Positions 5,248 to 51,209 of a stretch of DNA of 64,000 bases are shown one piece after another. This stretch comes from Catalinimonas alkaloidigena (lineage in GTDB: Bacteria > Bacteroidota > Bacteroidia > Cytophagales > Flexibacteraceae). Made by a program: the position numbers and the translations under genes. The stretch spans positions 248,001 to 312,000 of the forward strand of contig NZ_FNFO01000005.1 of assembly GCF_900100765.1 (NCBI RefSeq), given 5' to 3'. The stretch's first letter is position 1; each line of letters starts with the position of its first letter. A model generated the notes under the pieces. The model ran no database searches, was not told the origin of the DNA, and was given only the letters and a program-made list of their open reading frames with translations.

Positions 5248-5274
5248 GGAACAAGCTCGTCATCTATATTTCCT

Positions 5275-5874: not shown

Positions 5875-5896
5875 ATCAACAAAGCTGAGCTTCTTA

Positions 5897-6802: not shown

Positions 6803-6847
6803 TTTAAAGTAAAGTCATACTTTGTATTAATAAAACATTTGTAACAA

Positions 6848-8107: not shown

Positions 8108-8115
8108 TAATAATA

Positions 8116-8871: not shown

Positions 8872-8899
8872 ACATTCCTGTTTTTTTTATTATAAACAC

Positions 8900-9886: not shown

Positions 9887-9887
9887 A

Positions 9888-11249
9888 TTAATCAAACTTG
9901 TAACTAATAATAGAAACAGAAATCCCTAATTTATTTTTCAAATAGAAACTCATTGCAATATTCCAAAAGCATGTTGCAACTAGACTTGCTAAGGCTGCTC
10001 CAAAATAAGAATATGACGGTATCAAAAAGAAATTCAGTATTACATTAAGAATACCAGAAATAAGAATGATATTTTTAAATGCATTTTCGTGTTCGGTCAT
10101 CTGCAGAATATACCCTACTGAGCCACAGCCAATATTAACGCATTGCCCCAAGGCAATTATAAGAATCGCTGCTTTCCCTTCAATAAACTCTTGTCCAAAG
10201 AGATTTAGTATAAATTCGGGAACAAGGAAGATACCTACGAAAAAAGGTAATGAACTCCAAAAAGTTAAGGCCGTTGCTTGACGAGCAACCTTCTGTAATC
10301 CTACAAGATTATTACGCCCCCATTCTTCTGCAAACTTAGGTGCTACAATACTATTGACGGCTAATAAACCAATAGTCGTGATATTTGTAATTTTTACACA
10401 AACATTAAATATTCCTACTTCACTATCGGATTGCATAGCTCCTAGCATTAAGGTATCTGTAGTATTCATTACTAATTGCAAAGAACTTGCTAATAGTAAT
10501 GGCATTGAAGATTTCAGAAGAGATTTAAATTTTGAACCCTGGCCAAACCATTTTAACGTTAAACGTGAAAATGATGCAACTGAAATATTATTATTCAACA
10601 CCATGAAACTAGACACTGCAGCAATTGTGGCTGGAATTGAATAGGCTAAATAGGGTACATTTTCGCCATTTGAAGGATAGAACCAAAATAAGAGTACTAA
10701 TGTGATGGTAGCACCCAATTGCGGCCACAAGCTCTCAAAAAACGAAAACAGGTAAACGCGTTTTATACCTCTCAATCCCTCGATATTGATATACATCCAT
10801 GTAAATGGGAAAACACTTAGACCAACTAATTTCAAGCTTTCGCTCAAATAGGGCTTATCAAATACTCTTATGGCAATCCGATCAGAATAAACACAAACAA
10901 TCAAAGTAACCATCAAAGAAGAGAAAGAGATTAAGGCAAAAACCCTTTGATAAGTTTCAATGATATTATGATTCTGAGCTAACGCTTTGTACTTAGCAGT
11001 TAAGCGAAGTAAAATTGTATTTAGCCCAAGTTTACTTACTATAGTAGCTATGTTGATAGAAGACAAACAGATAGAAAATATTCCTAATGCATTCGCCCCA
11101 TAAAATCTTGCAACTAGAAAAGTAAAAACATAGCTAAAAAGGACACCCATTAGCTTGATTCCAAATGCTGCACCTGAGTTTATTATCAGTTCAGTTAGCT
11201 CAACATCGCCTCGTAATTTTTCTTTTATTTTAACCCACATGGCCTGCAT
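9888..11249 (-). CDS. Wzx-type polysaccharide flippase (MATE/MOP superfamily)
   Basis: 453 residues with about 12-14 membrane segments. The N-terminal portion, with INSGAAFGIKLMGVLFSYVFTFLVARFYGANALG split over two helices, has the RfbX/Wzx pattern, and the C-terminal helices end in a lysine-rich cytoplasmic segment. Wzx proteins move undecaprenyl-linked repeat units across the inner membrane. The gene is 10 bp from the tyrosine kinase gene and abuts the sulfotransferase gene, so translational coupling is likely. AT-rich composition matches the central block. Confidence 0.85.
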   Translation of the reverse strand: MQAMWVKIKEKLRGDVELTELIINSGAAFGIKLMGVLFSYVFTFLVARFYGANALGIFSICLSSINIATIVSKLGLNTILLRLTAKYKALAQNHNIIETYQRVFALISFSSLMVTLIVCVYSDRIAIRVFDKPYLSESLKLVGLSVFPFTWMYINIEGLRGIKRVYLFSFFESLWPQLGATITLVLLFWFYPSNGENVPYLAYSIPATIAAVSSFMVLNNNISVASFSRLTLKWFGQGSKFKSLLKSSMPLLLASSLQLVMNTTDTLMLGAMQSDSEVGIFNVCVKITNITTIGLLAVNSIVAPKFAEEWGRNNLVGLQKVARQATALTFWSSLPFFVGIFLVPEFILNLFGQEFIEGKAAILIIALGQCVNIGCGSVGYILQMTEHENAFKNIILISGILNVILNFFLIPSYSYFGAALASLVATCFWNIAMSFYLKNKLGISVSIISYKFD

Positions 11250-11259
11250 GAAGCTAAAG

Positions 11260-13611
<2,352 letters not shown>

Positions 13612-13614
13612 AAT

Positions 13615-14394
13615 TTACAATACTCTTGTGGCCACTACAATCAGGAGTGTAGTGACAGAGGCTATTATAGAAATAGTTCTTGTATTTGTACTAGCTTGTA
13701 CCTGCTTCATACGGTCTGGCTCCACATATACCACATCATTTTGTTGCAAATAGAAGTATGGAGAATTCAAAACAGATTTATCATTTAAATTCAATCGTGT
13801 AGCTGTTCTTGCCCCTTGCTCTTCACGTATTATTAATACGTTTTCACGCTTACCGAAAATGGTCATGTCACCAGCCATACCTAAAGCTTCCAAAACACTA
13901 ATTCGCTCAGAAGGAATTGTAAAGGTGGCAGGTCGGTTTACTTCCCCTACCACAGTAATTTTGTAATTCAAGAACCGTATGTATACAATAGGCTCCTTCA
14001 AGTACAACAATAAAGCTTTGGTAAGGGTATCTTTTGCCTGTGTTTTAGTAAGCCCAGCTAACCTTGTTTTTCCTAATACTGGAAAGTCAATAAAGCCTTT
14101 TTTATCTACAATATATCCTTCTCGATAAACGTTTTGTGGATTATCCATTGCACCATATGCGGTAGTAGTTGTCGGCATAACCACTCCCCGATTAAACAGC
14201 ATGTTTGATTCAGGACTCAGACTTGTCACCGTGATATTCAGCAAATCGTCAGGCTGAATTTTCGGCTCAGTAGCATTATTGACACTATCTTGATATATCC
14301 CCTGAATAGGAAGATTGCTAAAATACGTCAGGTTGCGTCGTGTGCACGACGTGAAACAGATTGCCCCCAGCAGGCAATAAATAAGTACTCTCAT
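13615..14394 (-). CDS. Wza-like polysaccharide export lipoprotein
   Basis: 259 residues. A short signal peptide with a lipobox (LGAICFTSC, Cys at about residue 17) shows it is a lipoprotein. The Poly_export domain follows (IQPDDLLNITVTSLSPES), then an SLBB-type segment (ITVVGEVNRPATFTIPSERISVLEALGMAG). A C-terminal hydrophobic helix (IASVTTLLIVVATRVL) could insert in the outer membrane, as the amphipathic helices of Wza do. It would form the export channel working with the downstream kinase. The composition is AT-rich, marking the upstream end of the low-GC block. Confidence 0.9.
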   Translation of the reverse strand: MRVLIYCLLGAICFTSCTRRNLTYFSNLPIQGIYQDSVNNATEPKIQPDDLLNITVTSLSPESNMLFNRGVVMPTTTTAYGAMDNPQNVYREGYIVDKKGFIDFPVLGKTRLAGLTKTQAKDTLTKALLLYLKEPIVYIRFLNYKITVVGEVNRPATFTIPSERISVLEALGMAGDMTIFGKRENVLIIREEQGARTATRLNLNDKSVLNSPYFYLQQNDVVYVEPDRMKQVQASTNTRTISIIASVTTLLIVVATRVL

Positions 14395-14460
14395 GTAAAG
14401 TTCACTGATTCAACTGCACGTGCCGTACCGCATTGGAGGTACAGAGGGAGCTGATAGTCG

Positions 14461-15855
14461 TTAGTAAGCATTTTCTTCGCCCCGGATGGCGTTGGTCACC
14501 GTCCGCAGGATGATCCGTAGGTCAAGCCAGAGGCTCCAGTTTTCCATGTACCAGGTATCGTATTCGACACGTTTCTTCATCATATCCGCGTTGGAGATCT
14601 CGCCGCGGGAGCCGTTTACCTGCGCATAGCCCGTAATGCCGGGGGTCACAAAATGGCGCACCAGGTATTTGTCGACCGATTGGGAATATTCGCGGGTGTG
14701 GGCTTCCATGTGCGGACGTGGTCCCACGACCGACATCTGCCCGAGCAGCACGTTGATGAACTGCGGCAGTTCGTCGAGGCTGGTTTTGCGCAGGAAGGCG
14801 CCTACGCGCGTGATGCGGCGGTCGCCCCGCGTGGCCGATTGGGCATTCGCTTCGGCATTCACATACATCGAGCGAAACTTATAGCACAGAAACGGCTTGT
14901 TCTTCCGGCCCGAGCGGGGCTGCTCGAAGAAAATCGGCCCCTTCGATTCGAGGCGGATCAGCAGCGCGATGATCGGGAAGACCAACGGCACCAGCACTGA
15001 CAGGACCAGCAAAGAGAAGGCGATGTCGAATCCCCGTTTGAGCAATTGGTTCAAGAAGATTTGCAGCGGGTCCTTCCGGAATTTCATGACGGGCACGTCG
15101 CCGTAGAAGTCGATGTTGACTTTCCGCTTGAGCAAGCTGCGCAGGTCCGGCGCAATTTTGAAGCTGATGAAGCTGTCGTCGGCAAAATCCGTGAGGTCTT
15201 TGATCAGGTCGGCCTGGTCGAGCGGCAGGGCGTAATAGATCTCGTCGACCTTTCGCTCCACACAAAAGGCTTTTACGTCGGCCAGGGTGCCTTGCAAGGG
15301 CAGGTAGCTCAGCTCAGGCTCATCGTCGAAAAAGCCCAGGAACTGGTAGCCTAACGATTTATGACTCACCAGGTACTGGTGCAGTTCCTGACCGGCGTGG
15401 TTGGCCCCTACGATCACGGCTTTGCGGTTCTTCCGCCGAATCCGCACAAACTGCCGCAACACCGTGCGAAAAATGAGCCGGATGAGCAGAACCACCGTCC
15501 CGGAGATGCCGTAGAGGATGGCCAGGGAATTCCATGAGAGTGCCGGGAAGCTGATGGCGTAGGCCGACAGCAACAGCAGGTGAAACCCAAAGGCATACAC
15601 GACACTCTTCAAAATCTCTCTGCGGTTGATCAGGATGTTGATCAGGCTGGAGGAGATGAACGATACGATCGTCAGCCAGGAGACAACCCAGGTCAGCTTG
15701 AACAGCATCAGCAGGTTCATGTACCGTGCCGATTTGATAAACACGGGATCGACCTCTACGTAGCTCGCCAGCTCCCACGACCAGTCGATCAAAAATGCAT
15801 CGACCACCAGCAGGATAATCCCAATCAGTTTAGAGTACTTCAGTTCTTTACTCAT
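14461..15855 (-). CDS. Undecaprenyl-phosphate sugar phosphotransferase (WcaJ-like)
   Basis: 464 residues from the ATG at 15855. A longer frame begins at 15897, but its first 14 residues are not signal-like, and the MSKELKYSK start precedes the first helix as in homologues. Four N-terminal membrane helices are followed by a CoA-binding-like domain ([17 protein letters not shown]). After a further helix comes the catalytic bacterial sugar transferase domain with [43 protein letters not shown] and VGPRP. It transfers a hexose-1-phosphate to undecaprenyl phosphate, initiating the repeat unit. GC-rich, unlike the next gene. Confidence 0.92.
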
Positions 15856-15989
15856 AAGACAGACATGCGCTAAAAATAATTCACTCGCATCACTCACTAA
15901 AAATTCCTCACACGACTAAAACAATTCTTTCAAGACATACCTTTTCCGCCCTGAATTTAGTTTATTCAAGTTTTACAAACACATCAGAC

Positions 15990-16190
15990 GGTGGTGGCTT
16001 ATACTATACTAAAAACATATTACGGCCCTCTCCCTGGTGGTGTGTAATATGGTCGGATGCAACGCCGGTACGGATTGCTCCTTTCTCCAAAGAAAACCAG
16101 TAATAACGTTGATGGTATCCAGACAGGTGGTCAGTGTACAGCAGGACGTTGGCGATTGCTTTCAATCAATACGAGGTGGTGAGTGTAATC
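15990..16190. repeat. Iterated GGTGGT...GTGTA motif in the capsule leader
   Basis: Degenerate copies start near 15990, 16036, 16126 and 16175. The best three share GGTGGTnnGTGTA, and those near 16036 and 16126 are followed by a CGnATTGCT-like element. Spacings are about 46, 90 and 49 nt, near multiples of 45. A further GGTGGTGAATG lies at 16375. On the transcribed minus strand the motif is TACACnnACCACC. Confidence 0.6.
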
Positions 16191-16204
16191 GCAAACGTAC
16201 ATAA

Positions 16205-16235
16205 CAAAGGTAGAAATAGATCCTTGTAAATCAAG
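16205..16235 (-). promoter_or_regulatory. Candidate promoter of the capsule operon
   Basis: On the minus strand CTTG (16232-16235, one mismatch to the -33 TTTG) is separated by 19 nt from TACCTTTG (16205-16212), a full match to TAnnTTTG. A second -7 match, TACGTTTG, lies at 16192-16199 without a clear -33 partner. Confidence 0.5.
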
Positions 16236-16663
16236 GACTTTCTTACAGTTACCGGCCTAGCTTCGAAAACATTTTAACATCTTTAAATATGTACCTGTTT
16301 TTTTGTGTAGGTGTTTAATCGAGTGTCTTTTTTGGTGTCTCTCCTTACCTAACTCGCAGTAAACGCTCCCGCGTGGTGGTGAATGCGTTGATCTTCTGTG
16401 CTGGTGCGTTTGTCATAAAACAACCATGACTGCTACGGAAGCATAGAAAATTTTACCGATTATCAATGCGATATTACAAGCAATCGCTTCCGAACGCAAT
16501 ACCTATTTTTAGGTATACCGCGCTGATCGGACGTCAACGGCCTTCATTTTTTCATTTTATTGATATAATTCAAAACAATTCCCAAATAAGTAAAAACCTT
16601 TTTTCGGCTTGTCCAGTAGAAGGGTCGCGGCATCGGATCAGCCTCACGCCTCTCGTCCGGCCG

Positions 16664-16719
16664 CCTCTCAAAACAAACGTCTTGCCGCTGTGCTGTATTC
16701 GTACACAACGACAAGACGT
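16664..16719 (-). terminator. Rho-independent terminator after the WecG-type gene
   Basis: A 16-bp stem (arms 16677-16692 and 16704-16719, with two G-U pairs in the minus-strand RNA) and an 11-nt loop are followed on the minus strand by TTTGTTTTGAG. It lies about 60 bp beyond the stop codon at 16779. Confidence 0.75.
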
Positions 16720-16778
16720 CCCTTAAAAAGCGTAAGAAATTTAGTGCAAGCGACAAGTGCTTCAGCCGCCCTGTGCTT

Positions 16779-17558
16779 TTACGACGGGCGCAGGCGCTTT
16801 TTGAGCATGGCCTTGGCGGCAAGCATTAAAAACAGGCTGTTGCCGATCAGGTAGCGCCGCCAGAGTCGTTTGGGTTCGAGGTAGAGTCGGTAGGCCCACT
16901 CAAGAGAAAGGTCGCGCGTCCATTTGGGAAGTCGTTTCTCGCGTCCTGTGTAGGTCAGAAATGCCTGCCCCACCCCCAGCATGCACGCCTGGACGGAATG
17001 CTGGTGCTGATGCATCCAGTTTTCCTGTTTTGGGCAGCCCAAGGAGACAAACACGAGGTTGGCTCCCGAGGCGTTGATCTCTTCGACGACGGCGGCGTCT
17101 TCTTCGGCGGTCAGGGGCCGGAAGGGCGGCGAATGCGTTCCTGCAATGGTCAGGTCCGGGTGCTGCGCGAGCGCCTGACTCACCAAGGCTTCCAGCACGT
17201 CTTCCGTAGAACCATAAAAGTAGACCGAGAGTCCGCGCCGGGCCGCTTCGCCCAACAGTTCCGGCAACAGGTCCATGCCACAGGCGCGCTCCTGCGGAAT
17301 GCCGTACAGCAGGCGCATCAGAATAGACAGGGGCCGCCCGTCGGGGCTGACGATCGTGGCCTCCTCCAGCACGCGGACAAACGTCGGGTCCTGATGCGCT
17401 TCGATGGTCATGTGGACGTTGGCAAAACAGACGTAGCCGCGCCGTTCCCGGCCCAACTGCAGGATCTCTTCCCGAATGGTTGCGTAAGGGGCCGTGGTTA
17501 CAGGCGCTCCCACGATGTCTACTTTGCGGAGTGCCTGACGTGATTCTTTGGTATGCAT
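16779..17558 (-). CDS. WecG/TagA/CpsF family glycosyltransferase
   Basis: 259 residues from the ATG at 17558; a TTG at 17579 would add seven residues. Family hallmarks are the N-terminal VGAPVTTAPYATIREEIL, VSPDGRPLSILMRLLYG, VYFYGSTEDVLEAL and FVSLGCPKQENWMHQHQ. The family moves N-acetylmannosaminuronic acid, N-acetylmannosamine or glucose onto lipid-linked acceptors, usually as the second sugar of a polymer. A basic C-terminal helical segment may bind the membrane. It is followed by its own terminator, so it is probably a separate unit beside the capsule operon. Confidence 0.88.
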   Translation of the reverse strand: MHTKESRQALRKVDIVGAPVTTAPYATIREEILQLGRERRGYVCFANVHMTIEAHQDPTFVRVLEEATIVSPDGRPLSILMRLLYGIPQERACGMDLLPELLGEAARRGLSVYFYGSTEDVLEALVSQALAQHPDLTIAGTHSPPFRPLTAEEDAAVVEEINASGANLVFVSLGCPKQENWMHQHQHSVQACMLGVGQAFLTYTGREKRLPKWTRDLSLEWAYRLYLEPKRLWRRYLIGNSLFLMLAAKAMLKKRLRPS

Positions 17559-17771
17559 GGGTTTATGCGTTCTTAACAATGGTCTGTGGCTAACCCTCCT
17601 GCAGGAGCGTCAGCGGACGAAGCGGTTCTACTTCCCCGGGCCGCGGCAGTCCGTGTGCAGGGTGGCGGGCAGCGCGGCGGCAGGTAAAAATACGCCTTTC
17701 TGGTAGGTTGTGTCAAACAGAAAACGAGCCGGGTGCGTCAGTGCCTCGCAGTGCGGGGCGTACCGATCCCG

Positions 17772-18389
17772 CTAATCGACTAAGCCATAGCGCAGTGCGA
17801 GTCGTACCAACTCGGCGGTATTTTTGACGCCCGCTTTCTTCAGGATATTCCGCCGGTGGGTGTTGACCGTCATGATGCTGATCTTGAGCTGTTGTGCAAT
17901 TTCGTTACTGGTGTGCCCCCGGGCCAGCAGTCCCAGAATTTCCAGCTCGCGCTCGCTCAATTCGGTTTCGCTCCATTGTTCCTGCAAACTCTCCCGCAGC
18001 TCTTCGCCGATGTAGAGTTCGTTCTGCATGGCCTTCCGAATGGCCAGGTGCACTTCCTGCAGGGAAGATGATTTGAACAGGTACGCTGAAGCGCCCCCGT
18101 ACAGCGCTTGCCGGGCGATGTGGGGATGATCTTCCACCGTCAGCATGATGATCTTCACCGCGGGGTATTCCTGACGAATGCGATAAGTAGCCTGCAAGCC
18201 GTCCAATTGCGGCATGCGCAAGTCGAGAATCACCACCTCGCAGGGATGGGCCGCAAGCCGGGCCAGGAGTTCCAGCCCGCTACGCGCCGTAGCGACGACC
18301 TCCAGGTCGGGAAAGTCCGCCAGCAGTTGCGTCAGTCCCTGGAGAAAAATCGGGTGATCATCCGCCAAAATGATCCGAATCGGGGACAT
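17772..18389 (-). CDS. NarL/FixJ-type response regulator (REC + LuxR HTH)
   Basis: 205 residues. The receiver domain has the acidic pair Asp10-Asp11, the phospho-acceptor Asp56 (VILDLRMPQLDG) and Lys106 (YLFKSSS). The C-terminal LuxR helix-turn-helix reads LSERELEILGLLARGHTSNEIAQQL, then TVNTHRRNILKKAGVKNTAEL. No histidine kinase is adjacent, so it is an orphan within this window. Its position beside the polysaccharide genes makes it a candidate regulator of them, but nothing in the sequence shows this. 190 bases of non-coding DNA separate it from the WecG-type gene. Confidence 0.93.
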   Translation of the reverse strand: MSPIRIILADDHPIFLQGLTQLLADFPDLEVVATARSGLELLARLAAHPCEVVILDLRMPQLDGLQATYRIRQEYPAVKIIMLTVEDHPHIARQALYGGASAYLFKSSSLQEVHLAIRKAMQNELYIGEELRESLQEQWSETELSERELEILGLLARGHTSNEIAQQLKISIMTVNTHRRNILKKAGVKNTAELVRLALRYGLVD

Positions 18390-24600: not shown

Positions 24601-27600
24601 ATGAAACACATCCACGAAAGTAGTGGGATTCGATCGGCAGGTTCTTTCCCTGCAAGGGTATCCCCCCCCCATTTACTCCAGCGGGCACTCACCGTTCGCA
24701 CTTTTTTTACATTCCTTGTTATGTACTTGGTCTGGGGTGGGTCAGTGGCCTTCGCCCAGTCGCACGCGTTGGTATTGGAATCAACGCCCAATACCCTGCA
24801 GTTGGGTAAAAACGGAAGCGGCTCGCTGAACAACTACCTCAGCACAGCCGACTACACCGACCCGGTCAGTACCACACTTACGGCAGTCGACGCGAAATCA
24901 GGAGCGGCACCCTCCTGGCTAAAAGTCAATCAGAAACTGCTGACAGGCATTCCGTATACCAGTGGCTCTGAGCTGGTGTTCGAGTTCGATGCCGCCGGTC
25001 TGAAGTACGGCACCTACCAAGCTACCGTAACGGCCTCTGCAGCTGGCTACGAAAGCACCTCGGTCGAGCTGTCGCTGGTGGTTTCTGACAACGCTCCGGC
25101 TACGGCCGCCGCTACGAATGCCTATCAGATCAACTTTTCGGACCAGGCCACGGCCACACCGAACGGCTGGCTGAAAGACTACGGTCAAGCCTACGGCGAC
25201 CGCGGCAACGGTCTGACCTACGGCTGGCTGACGCTGAATGGCCAGACGGGTCTGAACCTGACCACCAATGCCCGCAACCGGAACAAAAGCGGCGTCGACG
25301 TCTGGAAGAATACCCTGATTCACATGCAATACGGGGACATTGACAACGGCACGGGTACCAGCGGTAACAAAACGGAAGGGATCTGGGAAATGGCCCTCCC
25401 GAACGGCACCTATGCGGTATCGGTGATGGTGGGTGACCCCAACGCGGAGGTGAGCAACAATCCGCGCCACACCATTAACGTAGAGAACGTAACGGCCATT
25501 AACCGTTACATTCCGACGGGTGGCGACGGCAGCGCTACACTGCACAAAAGCGCCAGCGTCACGGTTTCGGTGAACGACGGACGCCTGACGCTGACGGCGG
25601 TAGGTGGCTTTAACACGAAGATCAACTCGGTTACCATCACCCCCACAACCAGCGGGGGCAGCGGCACGCCGCGCGTGGTGGGCGTAACACCGGCCAACGG
25701 CGCTACCAACCAGCCGCTTAACAGCAGCATTTCAGCCAACGAACTGGAACTGCCCAATGCAACGGCCGATGGGCTCTACGGGGTGGACAATACAACCATC
25801 ACCCAGAGCACAGTGCGTCTGTACAAAGGCACGACCCTGGTTCCGGCCAACGTGAACGGTACTGGTGGTGGCGATGCCATCATCCTGACGCCCGCTTCTT
25901 CGCTGGAACCCAACACGCAGTATCGCTTCGAAATCAACGGCGTACGCGACCTGACCGGCGTCGAATTCGAGCCGTTCTCGTCGACCTTCACAACGGGCTC
26001 GGGCTCAAACACGGGCAACGGCGGTACGCTCGATGGCGTTTCGTTCATCAAGTACGGCACCGTCGCGTCGGGCAGCATGTACACGACGCTCACAATCGGT
26101 CCCGATACCAAACTGTACGGCATCACGATTTTCGGTGATATCCACCGTTGGACCATCAACAGCGATGGGACCCTCAGCAACAAAGAAGCGGTCAGCTCCT
26201 GGAAAGCCAACTATGCCAATAGCCGCACGGCTGTCGGCCTGACGTTCGATCCGAAGTCAACGGCCAGCAACCTGATTGCCTGGGTTTCGCATTGCTCTGC
26301 CGGCTTCAACAACGCCCCGGAATGGGATGGCAAAATTTCGCGCCTGTCAGGTCCTAACCTGGAGACCGAACAACTGGTCGTGACCAACCTGCCGCGCTCG
26401 CGCAAAGATCACCTGACCAACAGCATCGCCTTTAAACCCGGCGAAAACAACGTGCTGTACTTCATGCAAGGTAGCACGAGCGCAGGCGGTGCCCCCGACA
26501 ATGCCTGGGGGAACCGTTCGGAGTGCCTTCTGTCGGCTGCCATGCTGCGGTTGGATCTGAACAAACTGCCGCAGTCAAGCTGGCCGCTCGATGCCAAAAC
26601 GACCACCAACCCGTCGGTGATCAACAACGCGCCCAGCAACTCGATTCTCATGTCCGACGGCACGTACAACCCGTATGCCACCAACTCGCCGCTGACCATC
26701 TACGGCTCGGGCATCCGGAATGCGTACGACCTGATCTGGCACACAAACGGCCAGTGTTATATTCCGGCCAACGGAACAGCGGGTGGCAGCAACACACCGG
26801 CTTCGGTCAACGGCACACGCCGTCCCAACGGTACGACTTATAACTTCGGAGAAATTCCGGCCACGACCAACAACGTCGTACAGCGCGACTGGCTGTTCCG
26901 GGTGGATCCGGCCCAGAGCGTAGGTTACTACGGCCACCCCAACCCGCTTCGTGGTGAGTACGTGATGAACCGCGGTTCGATCGACGTGCCTGCCTATCCG
27001 TTCGGAACGGCACCTGACCCGAACTACCGTGGCGCCGCTTACGATTTCGGCTTCAACGTTTCGCCCAATGGGGTGATCGAATACAAAAGCAACGCCGAAG
27101 GAGGCAAACTGAAAGGTGCCATTCTGGTGGTGCGCTACAGCGGTGGAGACGACATCGTCGCCATGCTTCCCAACGGCACCAGTGGCAACATCGGCTCGTC
27201 TCGCATCGGTATCCCGGGCTTCAATGGCTTCAGCGATCCGCTCGATCTGGTAGAAGACACCCGGAACGGGAACATTTACGTCTCGGAATACGGCTCCAGC
27301 AAAATCACGCTTCTGAAGCCCAACTCCGCCTCTACTCCTGCACCGATCATTTCGGTTAGCCCCGAAACACTGGTGTTCCAGGACTACACCAGCGGCGGTG
27401 CCAGCAGCCCGCAGACGGTGTTCATCACCAACGAAGGGAACGCCAACCTCTCGAACATTTCTATCACCAAGAGTGGTACCAATGCCGGAGGCTTCACGGT
27501 GAACCAATCGTCGCTGAAAAGCACCCTCGCGCCCGGTGAAACGTCGAGCTTTACGGTAACGTTCAACGCCGCCCTGACGGGTCAAGGTCCGAAGTACGCG

Positions 27601-30600
27601 CAGTTGACCATCGCTACGTCGACGGGCAGCGTAGCGCCCAAGCAGGTCAGCCTGAAAGCAGTCGGCCTGCCGGCCAACGGCGAGCCTTCGCTGCAGTGGA
27701 TTGCCGATACGTATTTCGGTGATAACTTCATCAACATCGGCGACGACAACGAGGCATCAGAACCCATCCACTCGTCAACTCCCGGTGCGCCCCTGTTGGG
27801 TCAGGAAGTTTCTGCCCAGCGCTTTGTACGCGCCGAAGATGCGCCGGTCACGCTGGAACTGATCAGCGTATACGGTCCTGGTGCAGTTAACCCGACGGTT
27901 GCTTTCGGATGGTATCCGTCCGGCAACGCCGGTGCACTGAACCCGCTGTTTACCGTCAGCAACACGTATGCAGAAAGCATCAACCCCATTGCCGACGGTG
28001 CGCTGGAATTTGATCCAGGCATTAGTGAGTTCGGATTCTACAGCCGCTGGCCTTACTTCGACAACCGGCTGGTGTTTAGCGAAGACGCCCTGAATACTTT
28101 CTCAGGTGCTATTCCTCACCACGTACGGGTGTACCAGGTACCCGGCCAGGCCAACACGTACCTGATCGCGACGGAAGAAAACCCGACCGGCTTCGATTAC
28201 AACGACGTGGTGGTAATTGCCCGCAACGTCATGCCGACCAGCAACACCGGCGGCGGCAAAACCCTGTCGTTTAGCCCTGGCAACCTGACGTTCAACACGT
28301 ACAACGGTGCTTCTACACCGCAAAGCGCAACCCTGACGGCCAGCAGCTCCATCAACGCCTCGAACGTGACGCTCACGTCTAACCAATCGTGGGTCGTATT
28401 GCCGCAGAAGTCGGTAGGCAGCCCCATGTCGTTCGACGTTAACACGGCAGGTCTGGCACAGGGCAGCTACACGGCGACGGTGACCGCATCGGCCCCTGAC
28501 TTTACGTCGGCAACGCTGCAGATCGTTGCAAACGTCAATTCCGGTTCGGCTACGGGTCCTTTCATCCGGGTCGAAAACATGACGAAGATTCCGTTTACCA
28601 GCGTAGGGTTCCCGGCTGACGACTACTACTCGTTCAACCATAACCTGAGCACCAGCAAGGACAATTCGTCGAAAGCGTGGCATCAGAAAAACGTCATGCG
28701 GATTCATAACGAAGGCACCAGCGTGCTGAACGTGACCGGCTTGACCATTTCGGGCAAAGAGTTCGTGCTGGAGAATACGCCGTCAACCTTCTCGGTACAG
28801 CCGGGCGCCTATCAGGATGTGACCCTCAAGTTTGTGGGGAACACCAACTACGGCAAACACCTGTTCAAGTCGACGCTGCAGATTGCTTCTAACGCGGGCA
28901 ACGGCTCGGTTAGCGTCACGCTGCATGGCTCGCAACAGGCCAACGTACAAGGTGGCTCCGAAGCCTCGGCACAGGACATCCTGAAAGCATTCGGATTCAC
29001 TACCGATATGGGGCAGTTGGGTTCCGACTATCCTACCGATCAGGATGTTAACAACGGTGTGTACGGCGACCTGGTGTTGTCGACCAAATTCAAGCGCGCC
29101 GATCCGAACAAGCCGGTCAATGCCTTCCAGATCCTGCAACTCCGGGATGCCGGCCGTGGTCGATTCTTCCTGCAAGCCGAATTGGGCAAACTGGAAGGTG
29201 TAGGCGGTGTCATTTACGATTCTGACTCCGCTTACTGCCAGTCGATCCTGCCGCGTGCTCAAAACGACAACACGCGCATTGCAGGCGCAGCGTCCAGCAC
29301 GGTGAGCGGTACCTTCTACATCAACATCGAAGGCTACCACACCTACGGCCGATGGGATCCTAACGACAAACGGATGTTGGGCACCCGAGTCTATAAAGTG
29401 CGGGACCGCAACGGCAACGTCATTCCGAACCACTACATCGTGGCGCGTGACCTGATCCGTAGCTGGGGATGTGGTTCTACAGATCCGCGTGTGAATTCAT
29501 CGAACAGCGGTAACTGTGACTTCCAGGACGACATTCACTACGTCATCAACCTTCGGCCTGCAAACGATCCGTCTGCCGGTTCCATTCCGAACAAGACGGT
29601 AGCCGCTGGTTCGCAGTTGAACTACCCTGTTGCCAGCTACTTTAACCTGGGCTACCCAGGCAACAAGCTGACCTACAGCGCTAAACTGAGCAACGGCAGT
29701 GCGCTGCCCGGCTGGTTGAACCTGAACCCGCAAACGGGTGTATTCAGCGGTACGGCCGGTGGTGCAAGCCCGCTCAACATTGTGGTAACCGCTACTGATG
29801 TGAACGGCATCGCCGTGACGTCGAGCTACACCCTGACCATTACGGGTGGCTCGGGCAACCAGTACCCCACCGCCAATGCAGGTGCCGACAAAACGGTGAC
29901 CGACAGCGACGGCAATGGCTCGGAAGTAGTAGCCCTGAACGGAGCGAGCTCGTCCGATCCGGATGGCAGCATCACCAGCTACAAATGGACCGAGAACGGG
30001 ACGCAGATTGCGACGGGCGCTACGCCTAACGTGACGCTGGCAGTGGGTACGCATACCATTACACTGACCGTCACGGATAACCAGGGGGCTACGGCCACCG
30101 ACGATGTGATCATCCAGGTGATTTCGAACGGGACCAACCCGCCGCCGGCATCGACCGACCTCTGGCTGGAAGCCGAGTGTGCTACATTGGGCAGCAACTG
30201 GAGCACCGTCAGCAGCTCAAGCGCCTCGAACAGTGCCATCGTCACCGTGAAGAGCGGCTACGGTTCAGCACCGTCCGGCCTGGCAAATGACCGCGTACGC
30301 TTCAGCTTCGACGTAAGCTCGGCAGGTACGTACCGTATCTTCGGTCGGATCCGGGCGATGAGCAGCAACCGGAACTCATTCTGGATTCGCGTCAACGGCG
30401 GCAACTGGATTCTCTGGGAGATGCCGGTCAACAGCGACTACACGTGGTATGAAAAAGACGGAGGTGCCGTGCAACTGGCGGCCGGCTACAACACGATCGA
30501 CGTGGAGTACCGCGAACCGAATACGAACCTCGACAAGCTGTACCTCACGAAAGGTACCAGCGCGCCTACCGGCCTGGGCAATACGGCCTCTAACTGTGGC

Positions 30601-31392
30601 ACTACGAAGCCCACACCTCCGACGCCTCCTGCGGCCAGCACCTACTGGCTGGAAGCCGAGTGCGCAACGTTGGGCAGCAACTGGAGCACCGTTAGCAGCT
30701 CAAGCGCTTCGAACAATGCCATCGTTACCGTGAAGAGCGGTTATGGCACCGCGCCATCGGGCCAGGCGGCCGATCGGGTCCGCTTCAACTTTAGTGTGAG
30801 CAGTGCCGGAACCTATCACGTCTTCGGTCGGATCCGGGCGATGAGCAGCAACCGAAACTCATTCTGGATTCGCGTCAACGGCGGCAACTGGGTGCTCTGG
30901 GAAATGGAACCCGACGGCGGTTACGTGTGGTACGAGAAAGATGGCGGCACCGTACAGCTGAATGCAGGTGCTAACACCATCGACGTAGAGTACCGTGAGC
31001 CGAACACCAACCTCGACAAACTGTGTGTGACGTCTAGCGCGGTGATGCCGACGGGTCTTGGCGAAGCTGCATCGAACTGCAACAGCGCATTGGTGCGCAG
31101 CGCAGCTCCCAGCAGTGCCTCGGTCGACTGGAGCACGGTGAACGTGTCGGTTTACCCGAACCCGAGCTTCGGTTCGTACAACGTGGCCTTCGAAGGTCCG
31201 CAACCCGAAACCGGCAGCATCAAAGTGATCTCTCTGACGGGCGTTACCCTGCGCGAAATCAAGGTGGAAAAAGCCCAGTGGAAATTCGAACTGCAAGAGC
31301 AGGCCGCTGGGATGTACATCCTGCAAATCGAGTTTGGCGATCGTTCCGAAGAAACCAATACGGTGCGCATGCAGCGTATCCAAAAACTGTAG
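24601..31392 (+). CDS. Giant multidomain T9SS-secreted carbohydrate-binding protein
   Basis: 2263 residues. The signal peptide ends at VAFAQ (residue 53). Apparent modules: malectin/CBM-like (about 170-350); Ig-like Big_5 (357-468); a propeller resembling glucose/sorbosone dehydrogenases (478-910); HYDIN-type (916-1020); DUF4114-like (1024-1210); BACON-like (1221-1313); a second HYDIN-type (1319-1447); an unassigned segment (1454-1655); He_PIG (1657-1750); PKD (1753-1843); two tandem CBM6-like domains (1853-2000, 2015-2160); and a type A T9SS sorting domain from VSVYPNPSFG (about 2180) to the end. It is probably displayed on the surface, binding and perhaps oxidising or sensing glycans. Enzymatic activity is unproven. 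A C9 tract lies at codons 21-24. The gene stands alone before a strong terminator. Domain names are by motif, not by search. Confidence 0.88.
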   Translation: MKHIHESSGIRSAGSFPARVSPPHLLQRALTVRTFFTFLVMYLVWGGSVAFAQSHALVLESTPNTLQLGKNGSGSLNNYLSTADYTDPVSTTLTAVDAKSGAAPSWLKVNQKLLTGIPYTSGSELVFEFDAAGLKYGTYQATVTASAAGYESTSVELSLVVSDNAPATAAATNAYQINFSDQATATPNGWLKDYGQAYGDRGNGLTYGWLTLNGQTGLNLTTNARNRNKSGVDVWKNTLIHMQYGDIDNGTGTSGNKTEGIWEMALPNGTYAVSVMVGDPNAEVSNNPRHTINVENVTAINRYIPTGGDGSATLHKSASVTVSVNDGRLTLTAVGGFNTKINSVTITPTTSGGSGTPRVVGVTPANGATNQPLNSSISANELELPNATADGLYGVDNTTITQSTVRLYKGTTLVPANVNGTGGGDAIILTPASSLEPNTQYRFEINGVRDLTGVEFEPFSSTFTTGSGSNTGNGGTLDGVSFIKYGTVASGSMYTTLTIGPDTKLYGITIFGDIHRWTINSDGTLSNKEAVSSWKANYANSRTAVGLTFDPKSTASNLIAWVSHCSAGFNNAPEWDGKISRLSGPNLETEQLVVTNLPRSRKDHLTNSIAFKPGENNVLYFMQGSTSAGGAPDNAWGNRSECLLSAAMLRLDLNKLPQSSWPLDAKTTTNPSVINNAPSNSILMSDGTYNPYATNSPLTIYGSGIRNAYDLIWHTNGQCYIPANGTAGGSNTPASVNGTRRPNGTTYNFGEIPATTNNVVQRDWLFRVDPAQSVGYYGHPNPLRGEYVMNRGSIDVPAYPFGTAPDPNYRGAAYDFGFNVSPNGVIEYKSNAEGGKLKGAILVVRYSGGDDIVAMLPNGTSGNIGSSRIGIPGFNGFSDPLDLVEDTRNGNIYVSEYGSSKITLLKPNSASTPAPIISVSPETLVFQDYTSGGASSPQTVFITNEGNANLSNISITKSGTNAGGFTVNQSSLKSTLAPGETSSFTVTFNAALTGQGPKYAQLTIATSTGSVAPKQVSLKAVGLPANGEPSLQWIADTYFGDNFINIGDDNEASEPIHSSTPGAPLLGQEVSAQRFVRAEDAPVTLELISVYGPGAVNPTVAFGWYPSGNAGALNPLFTVSNTYAESINPIADGALEFDPGISEFGFYSRWPYFDNRLVFSEDALNTFSGAIPHHVRVYQVPGQANTYLIATEENPTGFDYNDVVVIARNVMPTSNTGGGKTLSFSPGNLTFNTYNGASTPQSATLTASSSINASNVTLTSNQSWVVLPQKSVGSPMSFDVNTAGLAQGSYTATVTASAPDFTSATLQIVANVNSGSATGPFIRVENMTKIPFTSVGFPADDYYSFNHNLSTSKDNSSKAWHQKNVMRIHNEGTSVLNVTGLTISGKEFVLENTPSTFSVQPGAYQDVTLKFVGNTNYGKHLFKSTLQIASNAGNGSVSVTLHGSQQANVQGGSEASAQDILKAFGFTTDMGQLGSDYPTDQDVNNGVYGDLVLSTKFKRADPNKPVNAFQILQLRDAGRGRFFLQAELGKLEGVGGVIYDSDSAYCQSILPRAQNDNTRIAGAASSTVSGTFYINIEGYHTYGRWDPNDKRMLGTRVYKVRDRNGNVIPNHYIVARDLIRSWGCGSTDPRVNSSNSGNCDFQDDIHYVINLRPANDPSAGSIPNKTVAAGSQLNYPVASYFNLGYPGNKLTYSAKLSNGSALPGWLNLNPQTGVFSGTAGGASPLNIVVTATDVNGIAVTSSYTLTITGGSGNQYPTANAGADKTVTDSDGNGSEVVALNGASSSDPDGSITSYKWTENGTQIATGATPNVTLAVGTHTITLTVTDNQGATATDDVIIQVISNGTNPPPASTDLWLEAECATLGSNWSTVSSSSASNSAIVTVKSGYGSAPSGLANDRVRFSFDVSSAGTYRIFGRIRAMSSNRNSFWIRVNGGNWILWEMPVNSDYTWYEKDGGAVQLAAGYNTIDVEYREPNTNLDKLYLTKGTSAPTGLGNTASNCGTTKPTPPTPPAASTYWLEAECATLGSNWSTVSSSSASNNAIVTVKSGYGTAPSGQAADRVRFNFSVSSAGTYHVFGRIRAMSSNRNSFWIRVNGGNWVLWEMEPDGGYVWYEKDGGTVQLNAGANTIDVEYREPNTNLDKLCVTSSAVMPTGLGEAASNCNSALVRSAAPSSASVDWSTVNVSVYPNPSFGSYNVAFEGPQPETGSIKVISLTGVTLREIKVEKAQWKFELQEQAAGMYILQIEFGDRSEETNTVRMQRIQKL
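24662..24670. repeat. C9 homopolymer near the start of the giant gene
   Basis: Nine consecutive C in codons 21-24, before the hydrophobic core of the signal peptide. A slip would frameshift from the first start; an in-frame ATG at 24721 lies after the tract but leaves only a short signal. Confidence 0.9.
30158..31080 (+). repeat. Tandem duplication of a CBM6-like module
   Basis: Two copies are offset by 483 bp (161 codons). The stretch beginning at 30341 matches that beginning at 30824 over about 65 bases with one mismatch. The stretches near 30190-30260 and 30673-30743 are also close, differing mainly at third codon positions. Confidence 0.9.
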
Positions 31393-31650: not shown

Positions 31651-31654
31651 CAGG

Positions 31655-31727
31655 AGCGAGAAACGGGGCTCGAACCCGCGACCCTCAGCTTGGGAAGCTG
31701 ATGCTCTACCAACTGAGCTACTCTCGC
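31655..31727 (-). tRNA. tRNA-Gly(CCC)
   Basis: A 73-nt cloverleaf is seen on the minus strand. The acceptor arm GCGAGAG pairs with the 3' TTCTCGC including one G-U. A D-arm (AGCTCAGTTGGTAGAGC), an anticodon arm with loop TTCCCAA, and a T-arm (GGGTTCGAGCCCC) follow. The loop gives anticodon CCC, which reads GGG glycine codons. CCA is not encoded; the discriminator base is T. An exact -7 promoter match (TAATTTTG, 31741-31748) lies 14 bases upstream and a terminator follows. Confidence 0.95.
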
Positions 31728-34511: not shown

Positions 34512-35618
34512 TCAGTTCGTGTGCTGCAACAGCTTCCGGAAAAACGGCCGTAACTCTTCCGCCAGTCGGGCGTGCTCCTCCACACTCGGGTGGCCCGTAC
34601 ATCCGCTGGCTTGCATCGGCTCGAAAAAATAGAGGGCAACGGGCCGCGCGGCGGGATGCAACGCGTCGACCTGCGTTTTCACGGCGGTAAGGCATTGCTG
34701 CAATGTATCGCGCCGCCCGCCCTGCACCATGGGACTGCTCAACAGGGCAATCTGCGCCTCGGGGTAGTGCGCCTTGACCTGCTGCACAAACGCAACGTAG
34801 TGGCTGACAAATGCTTCAGGATCGAAAGGAAGCCGGGGACGCTGGCCATCGCCGTTGCTGTAGTCGTTCGTACCGAGCGCAATGCTCACCACCGCAGGCC
34901 GGTAGGCATCAAATTCCCACATGCGTTCACTGTCCTGCTGCAAATCGGCCTTTTCGTAGACCTGCGGCATGGTGGGGCCGTCGCTGTTCCAGTTGCGGTA
35001 CACCCCGATGCCGCTGACGCAGCTCATCAGGTAGTTGACGCCCAACGCCCGGGCCACACGCGGTCCGTACGCCTGATAAGCATTGTGCTGATCGTGGTAT
35101 ACGCCCGTTCCGCAGGGCACTTCCGACGGGTCGGCGGCGGCCCCGCAGGTAATGCTGTTGCCGATAAATTCGATGAACGGAGCTTCGGGACGCTTCAGGG
35201 AACGCACCCCCTGCCCCACAATTTCGTCCAGGATGATAGGCCCCGTGTGCGCTTCGGTGGCTTTGTAGAGCCAAACCGTCTGCGGCCCCTCGCCCGTTGC
35301 CTGAATGGTGATTTCGCTGCGGCTGGTATCGGCTACCCGGATTCGCTTCTGGTAGACGCCATCCAGTTCGTATTGCAGGTAATTGTGCGCTCCCGGCTGC
35401 GTCAGGTGCGCCACCACCCGGCAGCTATCACCCGCAAAGCGGAAGCCCACGTGCACGGCCGAGCCGATCAGCTCCACGCCTCCGTGCGGGGCAGGCAGGC
35501 TCCGTCCAACCGGGTACAGTGCCGAGGCGGGCAGGACCGCTTCGTCGGTGGTGGCGGGTTGTACGGAAGAACAGCCCGCGATGACGAGCCACAGCCACCC
35601 AAAAGATTTTGCGTTCAT
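34512..35618 (-). CDS. SGNH-hydrolase lipoprotein (CE2-like acetyl esterase)
   Basis: 368 residues. A lipoprotein signal (LVIAGCSS, Cys at about residue 16) is followed by an N-terminal beta-sandwich (about 35-140) and an SGNH hydrolase domain. The SGNH blocks are visible as FIEFIGNSITCG (nucleophile Ser), SCVSGIGVYRNW, SIALGTNDYSNG and, near the end, GCTGHPSVEEHARLAEEL with the catalytic His. This two-domain order is that of CE2 esterases, which deacetylate plant polysaccharides such as xylan. It sits between ribE (convergent) and hslV, away from the pectin locus. Confidence 0.82.
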   Translation of the reverse strand: MNAKSFGWLWLVIAGCSSVQPATTDEAVLPASALYPVGRSLPAPHGGVELIGSAVHVGFRFAGDSCRVVAHLTQPGAHNYLQYELDGVYQKRIRVADTSRSEITIQATGEGPQTVWLYKATEAHTGPIILDEIVGQGVRSLKRPEAPFIEFIGNSITCGAAADPSEVPCGTGVYHDQHNAYQAYGPRVARALGVNYLMSCVSGIGVYRNWNSDGPTMPQVYEKADLQQDSERMWEFDAYRPAVVSIALGTNDYSNGDGQRPRLPFDPEAFVSHYVAFVQQVKAHYPEAQIALLSSPMVQGGRRDTLQQCLTAVKTQVDALHPAARPVALYFFEPMQASGCTGHPSVEEHARLAEELRPFFRKLLQHTN

Positions 35619-45571: not shown

Positions 45572-47203
45572 CTACTTAACCGGCTCGATGCGGAACCAGT
45601 CGAAATCGGCGTAGCCGGCATCGTTGGTCTGCGCCTGGCGGGTACACATCAGCCCCACTTTCGCGCCGACCCAACGGCCTTCGCTCGCCTCGAACACATC
45701 GCCGACCGGCGTAAATCTTTTGCCGTTGGTGCTGTAACTGAACTGGCACTTCGCACCGGGGGTCACCGTGACGCGGAGGTAAACGGTCGGATCTTTCAGC
45801 CGGGTGATTTCCGTCTCTTTTTCGGGCGCCCCTTTTTCCGCATCCATCGCTACGCCGTGCATCAGATGCAGACCGTCTTCTTGGCTTTTGACCGTCAGGT
45901 TAGCGTAGTCGTAGCCCATCACCACCAACCCGGCCTCTTCGTTTTGCAGTTTCGGATTGTGGGTAAACGTCAGTTTTGTGGTGGCCTGAAACACACCGGC
46001 CGGAAATTTCTGGAACAATTGGTTGGGCACATTCCACAGGTTGGGTACGCTATCGGGCACCGGCATCGTGTACATGCGCAACACGCCCTTCGCGGGGTTC
46101 GGAAAAGCCCAGTACGGTTGCGGATTGGCGTGCCATTGCCACTGGAGGCCCAGCCGCGCGTCGTTGAACTCGTCCGATTCCGGCGGCGTCACCTTCGGGT
46201 AGGTTTTGCCAACATTAGGTTTCTGGTACGTATGGACCGGCTCTCCCGTCCCGTCGCCGTCTTTGTCCACCCCAATCACGGGCCAGTCGTTTTTCCACTG
46301 CATGGGATTGAGGTGCACCACCCGCCCGTACGGTCCCTGGTCCTGGAAATGCAGAAACCAGTCTTCGCCGGTCGGGGTGTCGACCCACGCCCCCTGGTGA
46401 GGTCCGTTGATGTCCGTCCGGCCCTGTTCCATCACTACTTTGCGTTCATACGGTCCGTAAATATTTTTAGAGCGCAAGACCAATTGCCAGCCCGTGGGAA
46501 CACCCCCGGCCGGCGCAAAAATGTAGTAGTAGCCGTTGCGTTTGTAAAACTTCGGGCCTTCGATGGTCGGGTCTGTTTCGTGCCCGTCGTAAACCAGCAC
46601 GCCGGTGTCGAGCGTTTTGGTCCCCTCCGGGTTCATCTTCTTCACCACGATCACGCTTTTGATGCCCGCCCGGCTCCCGGCATAGGCATGGACGAGGTAG
46701 ACCTGCCCGTCGTCGTCCCACAGGGGACACGGATCGATCAGCCCTTTGCCCCCTTCCACCAGAATCGGGTCAGACCAGGGTCCGGCCGGATTTTGCGCTT
46801 TCGTCACGTAAATCCCGAAGTCAGGATCGGGGTAGTAGATGTAGAATTCGCCGTCGTGGTGCCGAATGGCAGGAGCCCATACGCCATTGCCGTGCTGGGG
46901 CGTCTCAAAATGCGCAATCGGTACCTGACGGGGCAACGCATGGCCGATCAGTTCCCAGTTCACCAAGTCTTTTGAGTGCAGAATGGGCAAACCGGGTGCA
47001 GCGTTGAAACTCGACGACGTCATGTAAAAATCGTCGCCCACACGGCAGGCATCGGGGTCGGAATAGTCGGCGTAGAGAATCGGATTTTTGTACGTGGCAC
47101 CTTGGTCGGCCACCCACACGCTGGAAACGGGGGCGGCGCTTTTTTGCGCGAACGCTGCGCTACACATACCTGCCGCCAGTCCGACGGCTACGAAATACTT
47201 CAT
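45572..47203 (-). CDS. GH43 family glycosidase (xylosidase/arabinofuranosidase type)
   Basis: 543 residues. A signal peptide ends AAFAQ (residue 20). The five-bladed propeller starts KNPILYADYSDPDACRVGDDFYM, split as NPILYADYSDPD with the likely base Asp49. LIDPCPLWDDDGQVYLVHAY holds the pKa-tuning Asp, and EGPKFYKRNGYYYIF the likely general acid Glu. A C-terminal concanavalin-like domain (about 340-540) follows. It would remove arabinose, xylose or galactose side units in the periplasm. It is the last gene of the pectin locus; the precise linkage is unknown. Confidence 0.9.
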   Translation of the reverse strand: MKYFVAVGLAAGMCSAAFAQKSAAPVSSVWVADQGATYKNPILYADYSDPDACRVGDDFYMTSSSFNAAPGLPILHSKDLVNWELIGHALPRQVPIAHFETPQHGNGVWAPAIRHHDGEFYIYYPDPDFGIYVTKAQNPAGPWSDPILVEGGKGLIDPCPLWDDDGQVYLVHAYAGSRAGIKSVIVVKKMNPEGTKTLDTGVLVYDGHETDPTIEGPKFYKRNGYYYIFAPAGGVPTGWQLVLRSKNIYGPYERKVVMEQGRTDINGPHQGAWVDTPTGEDWFLHFQDQGPYGRVVHLNPMQWKNDWPVIGVDKDGDGTGEPVHTYQKPNVGKTYPKVTPPESDEFNDARLGLQWQWHANPQPYWAFPNPAKGVLRMYTMPVPDSVPNLWNVPNQLFQKFPAGVFQATTKLTFTHNPKLQNEEAGLVVMGYDYANLTVKSQEDGLHLMHGVAMDAEKGAPEKETEITRLKDPTVYLRVTVTPGAKCQFSYSTNGKRFTPVGDVFEASEGRWVGAKVGLMCTRQAQTNDAGYADFDWFRIEPVK

Positions 47204-47294
47204 GTATCAATAACAAATGGGCAAATGACAGAAACAAAAGCGCTTTGAGCACAGGCCTCTACTTCCATCCTATATGTATTCACTACGTGAGGCT

Positions 47295-48065: not shown

Positions 48066-48107
48066 CCGGAAATAGGTTTTTAGAAGGTAGAAGGTCAGGG
48101 TGTAAAA

Positions 48108-49454: not shown

Positions 49455-49657
49455 GTCAGCCTTATTAAACGTTGGGGGCGCTTTGCTCCTTATCAAGAAA
49501 GACGAACTCCGGCCCTGAGTATACCCACTCGGGACGCTTTCCTGCCGAATCGGATGAATGATGCGCAGGAAAGGGGCGTTCAATTCCCCTTCGGCCCCCT
49601 TTCGCTGCACATCGTCCTCATCTCCCTCGCAGAAGGTTTTGCGGCCAGGCGTAATGC

Positions 49658-51133: not shown

Positions 51134-51209
51134 AGCAAGGGGAATGACGAAAAAATAAAAAGAGGGGCGACTGCTTTGGCACCGCAGCCGCCCCCGCATC
51201 TATGAACAC

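Follow-up and report, generated by a model that had tools for sequence, protein, structure and literature searches.

A predicted sugar-dehydrogenase-fold propeller with a conserved pocket in a giant T9SS-signal protein of Catalinimonas alkaloidigena, from a family enriched near polysaccharide-export genes

We analyzed a 64,000-nucleotide stretch of the Catalinimonas alkaloidigena genome (contig NZ_FNFO01000005.1, positions 248,001 to 312,000; hereafter the window), in which positions 24601 to 31392 of the plus strand form a single open frame that starts with ATG and encodes a protein of 2263 residues. The open reading frame (ORF) is real. The initial annotation described its product as a dehydrogenase-like propeller combined with binding-type modules and a signal for the type IX secretion system (T9SS), and this description was borne out by matches to Pfam and NCBIfam models and by the structural matches of a predicted model. 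All coordinates of the protein given below are on the plus strand. Its N terminus (residues 1 to 53; 24601 to 24759), with a hydrophobic stretch up to ...VAFAQ, is signal-peptide-like by a reading of sequence and hydropathy only (best 19-residue hydropathy of 1.67). At the other end lies a T9SS type A C-terminal sorting domain (residues 2184 to 2250; 31150 to 31350), which scored 31.4 bits with PF18962 (cut-off 27) and 30.5 with TIGR04183 (cut-off 23). The propeller spans residues 471 to 918 (26011 to 27354).

Above the Pfam cut-offs are Big_5, an Ig-like domain (residues 356 to 465; 25666 to 25995; PF13205, E 1e-9); HYDIN/ASH, an Ig-like domain also matched by the NCBIfam choice-of-anchor-D model choice_anch_D (residues 915 to 1017; 27343 to 27651); He_PIG (residues 1660 to 1748; 29578 to 29844); PKD (residues 1760 to 1840; 29878 to 30120); and Por_Secre_tail (residues 2184 to 2249). 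The other modules carry fainter labels. The first carbohydrate-binding module (CBM), a galactose-binding-domain/malectin-like segment (residues 166 to 352; 25096 to 25656), matches PF21254 weakly and under cut-off (E 0.0099). An Ig/BACON-like segment ahead of it (residues 54 to 165; 24760 to 25095), whose boundaries were cut by hand, and a BACON-like segment in the middle of the protein (residues 1223 to 1312; 28267 to 28536) have no Pfam match and take their labels from resembling stretches in relatives. A second HYDIN/PapD-like Ig domain (residues 1313 to 1440; 28537 to 28920) reaches a Z of 10.8 to the SPD-2 domain of CEP192. The C-terminal CBM-like modules (residues 1848 to 2000, 30142 to 30600, and residues 2007 to 2165, 30619 to 31095) are a tandem duplicate with 79% DNA identity across 300 nt, and they give weak CBM_35, Golvesin_C and GH115_C matches under cut-off.

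The segment after the first HYDIN domain (residues 1023 to 1222; 27667 to 28266) is called DUF4114-like on the strength of a DUF4114 match in 5 of 28 aligned members (best E 0.0037), the window copy not being among them. When this segment and its HYDIN partner were used together in a fold search, the match list was taken up by the Ig part and so bears on that part alone. Residues 1441 to 1655 (28921 to 29565) were considered as a new domain, a candidate rejected because profile comparison shows them to be a second copy, paralogous to the first DUF4114-like domain (hhalign probability 99.2, E 2.7e-19). The domain order first proposed thus stands as listed, except that the Ig/BACON-like segment at residues 54 to 165 had been missed and that the segment called unknown is this second DUF4114-like domain.

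The propeller was modeled with high predicted confidence (model m811dc9579580; pLDDT 94.6, pTM 0.93), and the predicted model is a six-bladed propeller of the type of the sugar dehydrogenases that depend on pyrroloquinoline quinone (PQQ). AA12, aldose and glucose dehydrogenases occupy the top Foldseek ranks (E 1e-13 to 3e-10), with 6jt5 at rank 1 (9.6e-14), and VIA-align gave Z scores of 27.3 to 32.5 to sugar dehydrogenases and AA12 across 299 to 336 aligned residues, the best (32.5) to 3a9g. Other propellers scored lower, at about 24 to 26: Diels-Alderases up to 25.8, HHIP about 24 to 25.5 and lactonases about 24 to 25. Because the lactonase and Diels-Alderase folds score lower, a lactonase reading was not adopted, though it may still apply. 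In the structural rows, identity to the soluble glucose dehydrogenase (sGDH) and aldose dehydrogenase group (sGDH/Asd; PF07995) does not exceed 21%. The Pfam GSDH model PF07995 does not match the window propeller at E up to 1, although it matches 40 of 59 family members at that threshold (best 3.4e-9). The closest NCBIfam models are TIGR02604 (Piru_Ver_Nterm, a propeller of the Planctomycetes-Verrucomicrobia-Chlamydiae type), matched by 56 of the 59 members (best E 6.6e-11), and the ScyD/ScyE family, matched by 49 (best E 2.8e-7); the window copy lies far under the TIGR02604 cut-off (E 0.023; 14.1 bits against 122.2). A sequence profile of the propeller (A1) found only two PDB chains, both unrelated (E 0.46 and 0.9), and the TrAA12 model PF22807 gave no match at 1e-20 in 59 relatives, nor in the controls. 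We read the propeller as an unnamed subfamily within the fold of the soluble glucose/aldose dehydrogenases, one that probably acts catalytically on saccharides and whose dependence on PQQ is not proven.

For the pocket, conservation was counted over the 59 aligned propeller members, with 19 aldose dehydrogenases of related genomes as the canonical reference and with the roles of His144, Arg228, Asn229, Gly247, Lys377 and the carboxylate-binding arginines as given in PMC6881810 and PMC6881789. The profile alignment with the 19 canonical enzymes pairs His604, in the Asp603-His604 step (26407 to 26412), with the catalytic histidine (His144 of sGDH) and Arg706-Asn707 (26716 to 26721) with the Arg-Asn pair (Arg228-Asn229); alignment to the 915-residue protein encoded elsewhere in the window, discussed below, likewise pairs the His and the Arg-Asn. 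Asn724-Gly725 (26770 to 26775) is the candidate for the catalytic calcium loop, corresponding by hand alignment to sGDH Gly247 and to Asn448-Ser449 of the fungal AA12 enzyme CcPDH; the loop reads Asn-Gly-(Ser/Thr) in 59/59 with the same spacing from Arg-Asn, and the ligands in the known enzymes (Gly247/Pro248 or Ser449/Asp451) are partly main-chain. The His, the Arg-Asn and the Asn-Gly are invariant in 59/59 members and kept in all six copies of the window genome. Equally invariant (59/59) is a second loop signature, Asp633-x2-Trp636-x2-Arg639-x-Glu641.

Residues past Asn707 were mapped by hand alignment; hhalign gave no usable alignment of the C-terminal halves. In this mapping, the arginine that we take to be Arg406 in sGDH numbering is replaced by Asp or Asn in 58 of 59 members and Arg408 by Leu or Ile in 58 of 59, each with a gap in the remaining one, and Lys377 corresponds to Ser. 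This Arg-x-Arg clamp, which anchors PQQ, is kept by 19/19 canonical aldose dehydrogenases. With the clamp lost and the catalytic residues kept, the pocket is not a full PQQ site, but it has not degenerated either. The initial annotation had called for a check of the cofactor residues and had held that loss of all of them, together with no glycan binding, would argue for a purely structural role. What we found is a mixed picture in which the catalytic His and Arg-Asn persist in 59/59 and the PQQ-anchoring arginines are gone in 58/59.

One reading of this mixture is an ordinary PQQ-dependent sugar dehydrogenase at the cell surface that would scavenge PQQ from the environment and feed electrons outward. 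The fold and the catalytic residues fit it, and AA12 enzymes, which have the same fold, bind PQQ although they lack Lys377 and have a different arginine standing in for Arg408 (PMC6881789); Lys377 is thus missing in AA12 and the window propeller alike, and by hand alignment Asn724 and Asn819 (His in some copies) fall on CcPDH Asn448 and His539. However, the equivalents of AA12 Arg273 and Arg621 are lost here by the same alignment, and Arg621, with its sGDH counterpart Arg406, is stated in that text to be conserved across both groups, whereas this family has Asp or Asn. CcPDH has a cytochrome b domain, whereas the Pfam scan found no cytochrome-type domain in the 2263-residue protein, unlike the 915-residue one. 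With the window copy also unmatched by Pfam GSDH, we regard this reading as quite improbable.

A second reading takes the protein for a polysaccharide-binding adhesin or matrix protein in which the pocket holds a ligand without performing chemistry. The HHIP propeller is protein-binding and non-enzymatic, an example of this fold used as a binding platform. Such a role would suit the remaining modules, which are of binding or spacer types, as well as the loss of the PQQ-anchoring arginines and the state of PQQ synthesis in the window genome, where no pqqE was found above the curated cut-off and no pqqC match was found. As the control genomes also failed both cut-offs, absence of PQQ synthesis genes is not proven. 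The comparison with HHIP itself points the other way: HHIP keeps the catalytic His and has His-Asp in place of Arg-Asn, whereas the window family keeps the general base and Arg-Asn in 59/59, as do seven checked records from elsewhere (below). The second invariant signature and the existence of short copies, with open frames of 515 to 581 residues, also speak against a non-catalytic platform, which we consider doubtful but still a serious competitor.

A search of the genome collection with the propeller gave 46 loci, of which 45 are in Bacteroidota records (lineage labels assigned here) and one in an Egibacteraceae metagenome-assembled genome. These loci, all outside the window, yielded 53 ORF pieces with a propeller on which domain order was counted; in 19 of them a locus end cuts the piece. 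Big_5 lies directly 5′ of the propeller in 52/53, and a galactose-binding-domain-like segment stands somewhere ahead of the first propeller in 46/53. HYDIN follows the propeller directly in 40 pieces, and HYDIN plus a DUF4114-like domain in 25; a later HYDIN–DUF4114-like pair occurs in 27, both pairs in 22, and He_PIG plus PKD directly after the later pair in 12. Six pieces hold two propellers. The idea that the architecture is a one-off is rejected on these counts, since Big_5–propeller recurs in 52/53 and the longer core in 22/53; the domain order is partly a family trait, and some members, not all, share the window protein's full order. Nor does the protein's size, called unusual in the initial annotation, clearly set it apart, because relatives reach 6000 to 7000 residues (open frames of up to 6965), those of the Mucilaginibacter type being shorter. 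Six propeller copies occur in the window genome alone; the frames that carry them measure 6590 (two), 2872, 2265, 1459 and 543 residues. Adjacent giant genes of 6590 and 2872 residues (G000:C7:84686-113712; L074 and L075) encode three propellers together with He_PIG/PKD units and T9SS tails.

The family is patchy. It is present in 2 of 59 genomes near the window genome and, with four candidates scored per genome, in 6 of 392 genomes of a phylum sample, the window genome counted in both. In a tree of 64 propellers (FastTree, midpoint-rooted, branch positions read without support values), the neighbors of the window copy are not its own-genome paralogues but propellers that come first, or stand alone, in giants of other orders, for example those of Saprospiraceae, Aquiflexum, Maribacter, Arenibacter, Pricia and Robertkochia. 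Mucilaginibacter and Hufsiella proteins of 937 to 951 residues stop just past the propeller and show no T9SS-like tail by eye, the means by which the tails of relatives were judged because a T9SS-tail profile built here matched only 2 of 60 ORF pieces. Their N termini are strongly hydrophobic (best 19-residue hydropathy of 2.1 to 2.8, against 1.67 in the window protein), and from this we read them as predicted membrane-anchored forms. If that reading holds, the propeller would work both outside and in the periplasm, beside the export machine. The 543-residue copy of the window genome also stops past the propeller (N-terminal hydropathy of 1.84), and its N terminus could equally be a signal peptide. 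Tandem pairs of propeller genes occur in six loci (L035, L037, L042, L043, L047 and L049), one gene encoding about 1490 to 1765 residues with a T9SS-like tail, by eye, and the other about 940 residues with a hydrophobic N terminus and no tail; the two gene types sit on different tree branches.

In 37 genomes we mapped both the propeller and the polysaccharide-export protein Wza (PF02563), merged propeller copies within 25 kb into 65 loci, and derived expected counts from Wza numbers and genome sizes. Sixteen of the 65 propeller loci lie within 10 kb of a Wza match, against 0.78 expected. The control, 150 listed canonical GSDH matches from the same genomes (147 loci), gave 2 such loci against 1.73 expected. 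The 16 linked loci comprise 10 of Sphingobacteriales, 5 of the Lewinella group and 1 of Leeuwenhoekiella (lineage labels again assigned here); without Sphingobacteriales, 6 are linked against 0.49 expected among about 52 loci, by hand count. Four further genomes were divided: G302 and G436, of one genus, have a copy 4.4 to 4.7 kb from Wza, and G271 and G391 do not; G039 and G267 seem to repeat genomes already counted, with identical coordinates.

In seven loci of Mucilaginibacter, Hufsiella and Anseongella (L035, L038, L042, L043, L044, L047 and L049), a homologous gene lies 3′ of the propeller genes. In L035, the only one of the seven with its domains read, this gene is Wza; after it come Wzc, a weak match to Wzy, and glycosyltransferases. 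On the opposite side, six loci have genes of one homology group, NusG-like as read in L042. The propeller gene of Mucilaginibacter-type loci is on the same strand as Wza and just 5′ of it; across groups it is either on the same strand ahead of Wza or divergent, and this difference argues for more than one origin of the linkage. Among the matches listed in a literature search of titles and the starts of abstracts, we found no description of the propeller or of its linkage to exopolysaccharide (EPS) genes, and the main text of PMC9606717 does not mention malectin, exopolysaccharide or glucose dehydrogenase.

The window itself holds a Wzx/Wzy-type EPS/capsule cluster on the minus strand (3766 to 15897) with Wzi, a hexapeptide protein, Wzy, GT2, Wzx/MatE, Wzc, Wza (13615 to 14394, Pfam scan) and a priming sugar transferase; its wider extent (1177 to 18389, minus) includes WecG, glycosyltransferases and a LuxR-type response regulator. 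Between the cluster and the giant gene lie a WecG-type transferase, a response regulator, a galactokinase, a symporter and a weak binding-protein match. The distance of 11.8 kb between the propeller and Wza fits the family trend and is weak evidence by itself.

A foraging enzyme-adhesin for external plant or algal glycans, for which the EPS linkage of relatives would be irrelevant to the window copy, must also be weighed here. The window contains a SusC/D-GH43 locus and a CE2-type esterase, and the propeller gene stands outside the EPS operon. T9SS is, moreover, a common export route for foraging-type surface enzymes. Against this, relatives cluster with export genes, and the scanned neighbors at 20 to 34 kb of the window are not genes of a polysaccharide utilization locus; they comprise a sodium symporter, a weak match to an ABC-binding protein, a tRNA, TPR and lumazine-binding proteins, and DUF4168. 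We judge foraging unlikely as an account of the target, a judgment that overlaps with those on the other readings.

When 72,556 plasmid records were searched at the protein level, 14 matched the propeller. The matching records measure 235 kb to 11.9 Mb and are thus large replicons, the largest probably a chromosome. A phage origin of the propeller is rejected, as no phage record matches. Nine of the 14 were retrieved, and seven of these (two Deinococcus, two Rhizobium, Yoonia, Salipiger and Nonomuraea; 33 to 48% identity) were checked for the signature and keep His, Arg-Asn and Asn-Gly for the parts covered; Arg845, Asp851, Asn819 and a few more residues vary, and in Yoonia Ala replaces the His of a Gly-His-Pro-Asn stretch. 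By alignment, the Deinococcus, alphaproteobacterial and actinomycete copies thus share the same pocket signature in the parts covered. The other matches are six weaker ones at 24 to 29% identity (Rufibacter, Hymenobacter, two Persicobacter, Haloarcula and Halobellus) and a Persicobacter match at 62.5%. In both Deinococcus records EPS genes surround the propeller gene (glucose-1-phosphate thymidylyltransferase, glycosyltransferases and O-antigen ligase), one record adding UDP-galactopyranose mutase and a polyprenyl glycosylphosphotransferase. In both Rhizobium records and in Salipiger, the propeller is part of a protein of about 3100 to 5240 residues close to genes for type I secretion. Around the propeller of the Nonomuraea and Persicobacter records there is no annotation.

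Two further features of these replicons were seen. The Deinococcus plasmid EPS loci (L138 and L142) encode several NPCBM/NEW2 proteins, one of them with a propeller and adjoining a WD40-repeat protein. The Rhizobium and Salipiger giants (L139, L141 and L143) are carbohydrate-binding proteins.

The reading that we favor, while holding it to fall somewhat short of an even chance, is that the propeller is an active saccharide-acting pocket within a large surface or matrix protein. Because the family is enriched beside polysaccharide-export genes, the producer's own exopolysaccharide would be its likeliest target. The 2263-residue protein would enter the periplasm by its signal peptide and, given the sorting signal seen at its C terminus, would leave through the type IX system, which probably also anchors it. 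Its Ig-like, PKD, He_PIG, DUF4114-like and CBM-like modules may form a stalk and glycan-binding arms that hold the polysaccharide and offer it to the propeller, the one probable enzymatic domain. There, the general base His604, Arg706-Asn707 and probably the calcium loop would act on a saccharide in the same pocket that the known enzymes use, with the Arg-x-Arg for the PQQ carboxylates lost; either PQQ might be taken from outside and bound in a different way, or the chemistry might have changed to one poor in cofactors.

Several observations weigh against this favored reading. At the pocket, they are the replacement of Arg406, Arg408 and Lys377 and the retention of Arg-x-Arg by the canonical enzymes, the reliance on hand alignment past Asn707, and the pqqE and pqqC result. 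At the level of linkage, 49 of the 65 propeller loci are farther than 10 kb from Wza, and the linked genomes are related to each other (10 of 16 Sphingobacteriales, 5 of the Lewinella group). The window copy is on the opposite strand from Wza with other genes between and is not in the EPS operon; the other propeller copies of its genome have no Wza match on their contigs; and the Lewinella-group copies with the window architecture are not those adjoining Wza. Beyond Bacteroidota, no annotated EPS genes adjoin the propeller in either Rhizobium record or in Salipiger, and neither annotated EPS nor type I secretion genes adjoin it in Yoonia.

A bolder proposal, which we put forward as rather unlikely, makes the propeller the founding module of a so far unrecognised class of exported enzymes that modify the producer's own exopolysaccharide. 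It would be one catalytic module on giant proteins, exported, on a similarly speculative footing, by each lineage's own route. With equal reserve, the route could be T9SS for Bacteroidota and type I secretion for Rhizobium and Salipiger; Mucilaginibacter would have membrane-anchored forms beside Wza, and Deinococcus would carry the module in plasmid EPS loci. Such enzymes could employ PQQ in some novel manner, or they could turn the sugar-dehydrogenase pocket to another reaction. Adhesin of unknown role is the usual label for the giant proteins that Bacteroidota secrete. A pocket of predicted sugar-dehydrogenase type that is conserved and probably active, is tied statistically to export genes and occurs in four bacterial phyla turns such an adhesin into a testable enzyme candidate with a defined residue for mutation and a defined first substrate, and it raises the question of how a quinone enzyme fold loses its cofactor clamp yet keeps its catalytic residues.

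The 915-residue protein of the window (60180 to 62927) is, as the initial annotation stated, a fusion of GSDH, PKD, cytochrome c and CBM6, which Pfam matches confirm on the minus strand. The propeller resemblance that it noted is real but weak (hhalign E 1.5e-4, probability 52). The two proteins have in common a related propeller, PKD and a CBM6-type module; unlike the 2263-residue protein, the 915-residue one has a canonical GSDH domain (E 1.6e-34), cytochrome c, a lipoprotein-type N terminus by sequence reading, and no T9SS tail match in Pfam or NCBIfam, and it lies beside FecR, TonB-plug receptor, SusD and GH43 genes. From these features we place it in another locus, with probably another export route. 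A sister relationship is rejected, because the likeness is limited to the fold and a weak profile match and because the propeller tree puts the window copy with giants of other orders. The suggestion that the two are binding and redox-active versions of one strategy found no support: the 915-residue protein belongs to another locus, and the pocket residues of the 2263-residue protein are kept, so that its propeller does not look dead and the protein is not simply a binding version.

The SusC/SusD locus (45572 to 62927, minus strand) also encodes FecR, a DUF5123/DUF4957 protein and GH43, followed by the GSDH-PKD-cytochrome c-CBM6 protein. A scan for promoters and terminators was uninformative (5 found against 4.0 expected, and 11 against 9.8). 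Directly 3′ of the giant gene lies tRNA-Gly (ccc) (31653 to 31727, minus strand), and the CE2-type GDSL esterase (34512 to 35618, minus strand) lies about 3 kb 3′ of the giant gene.

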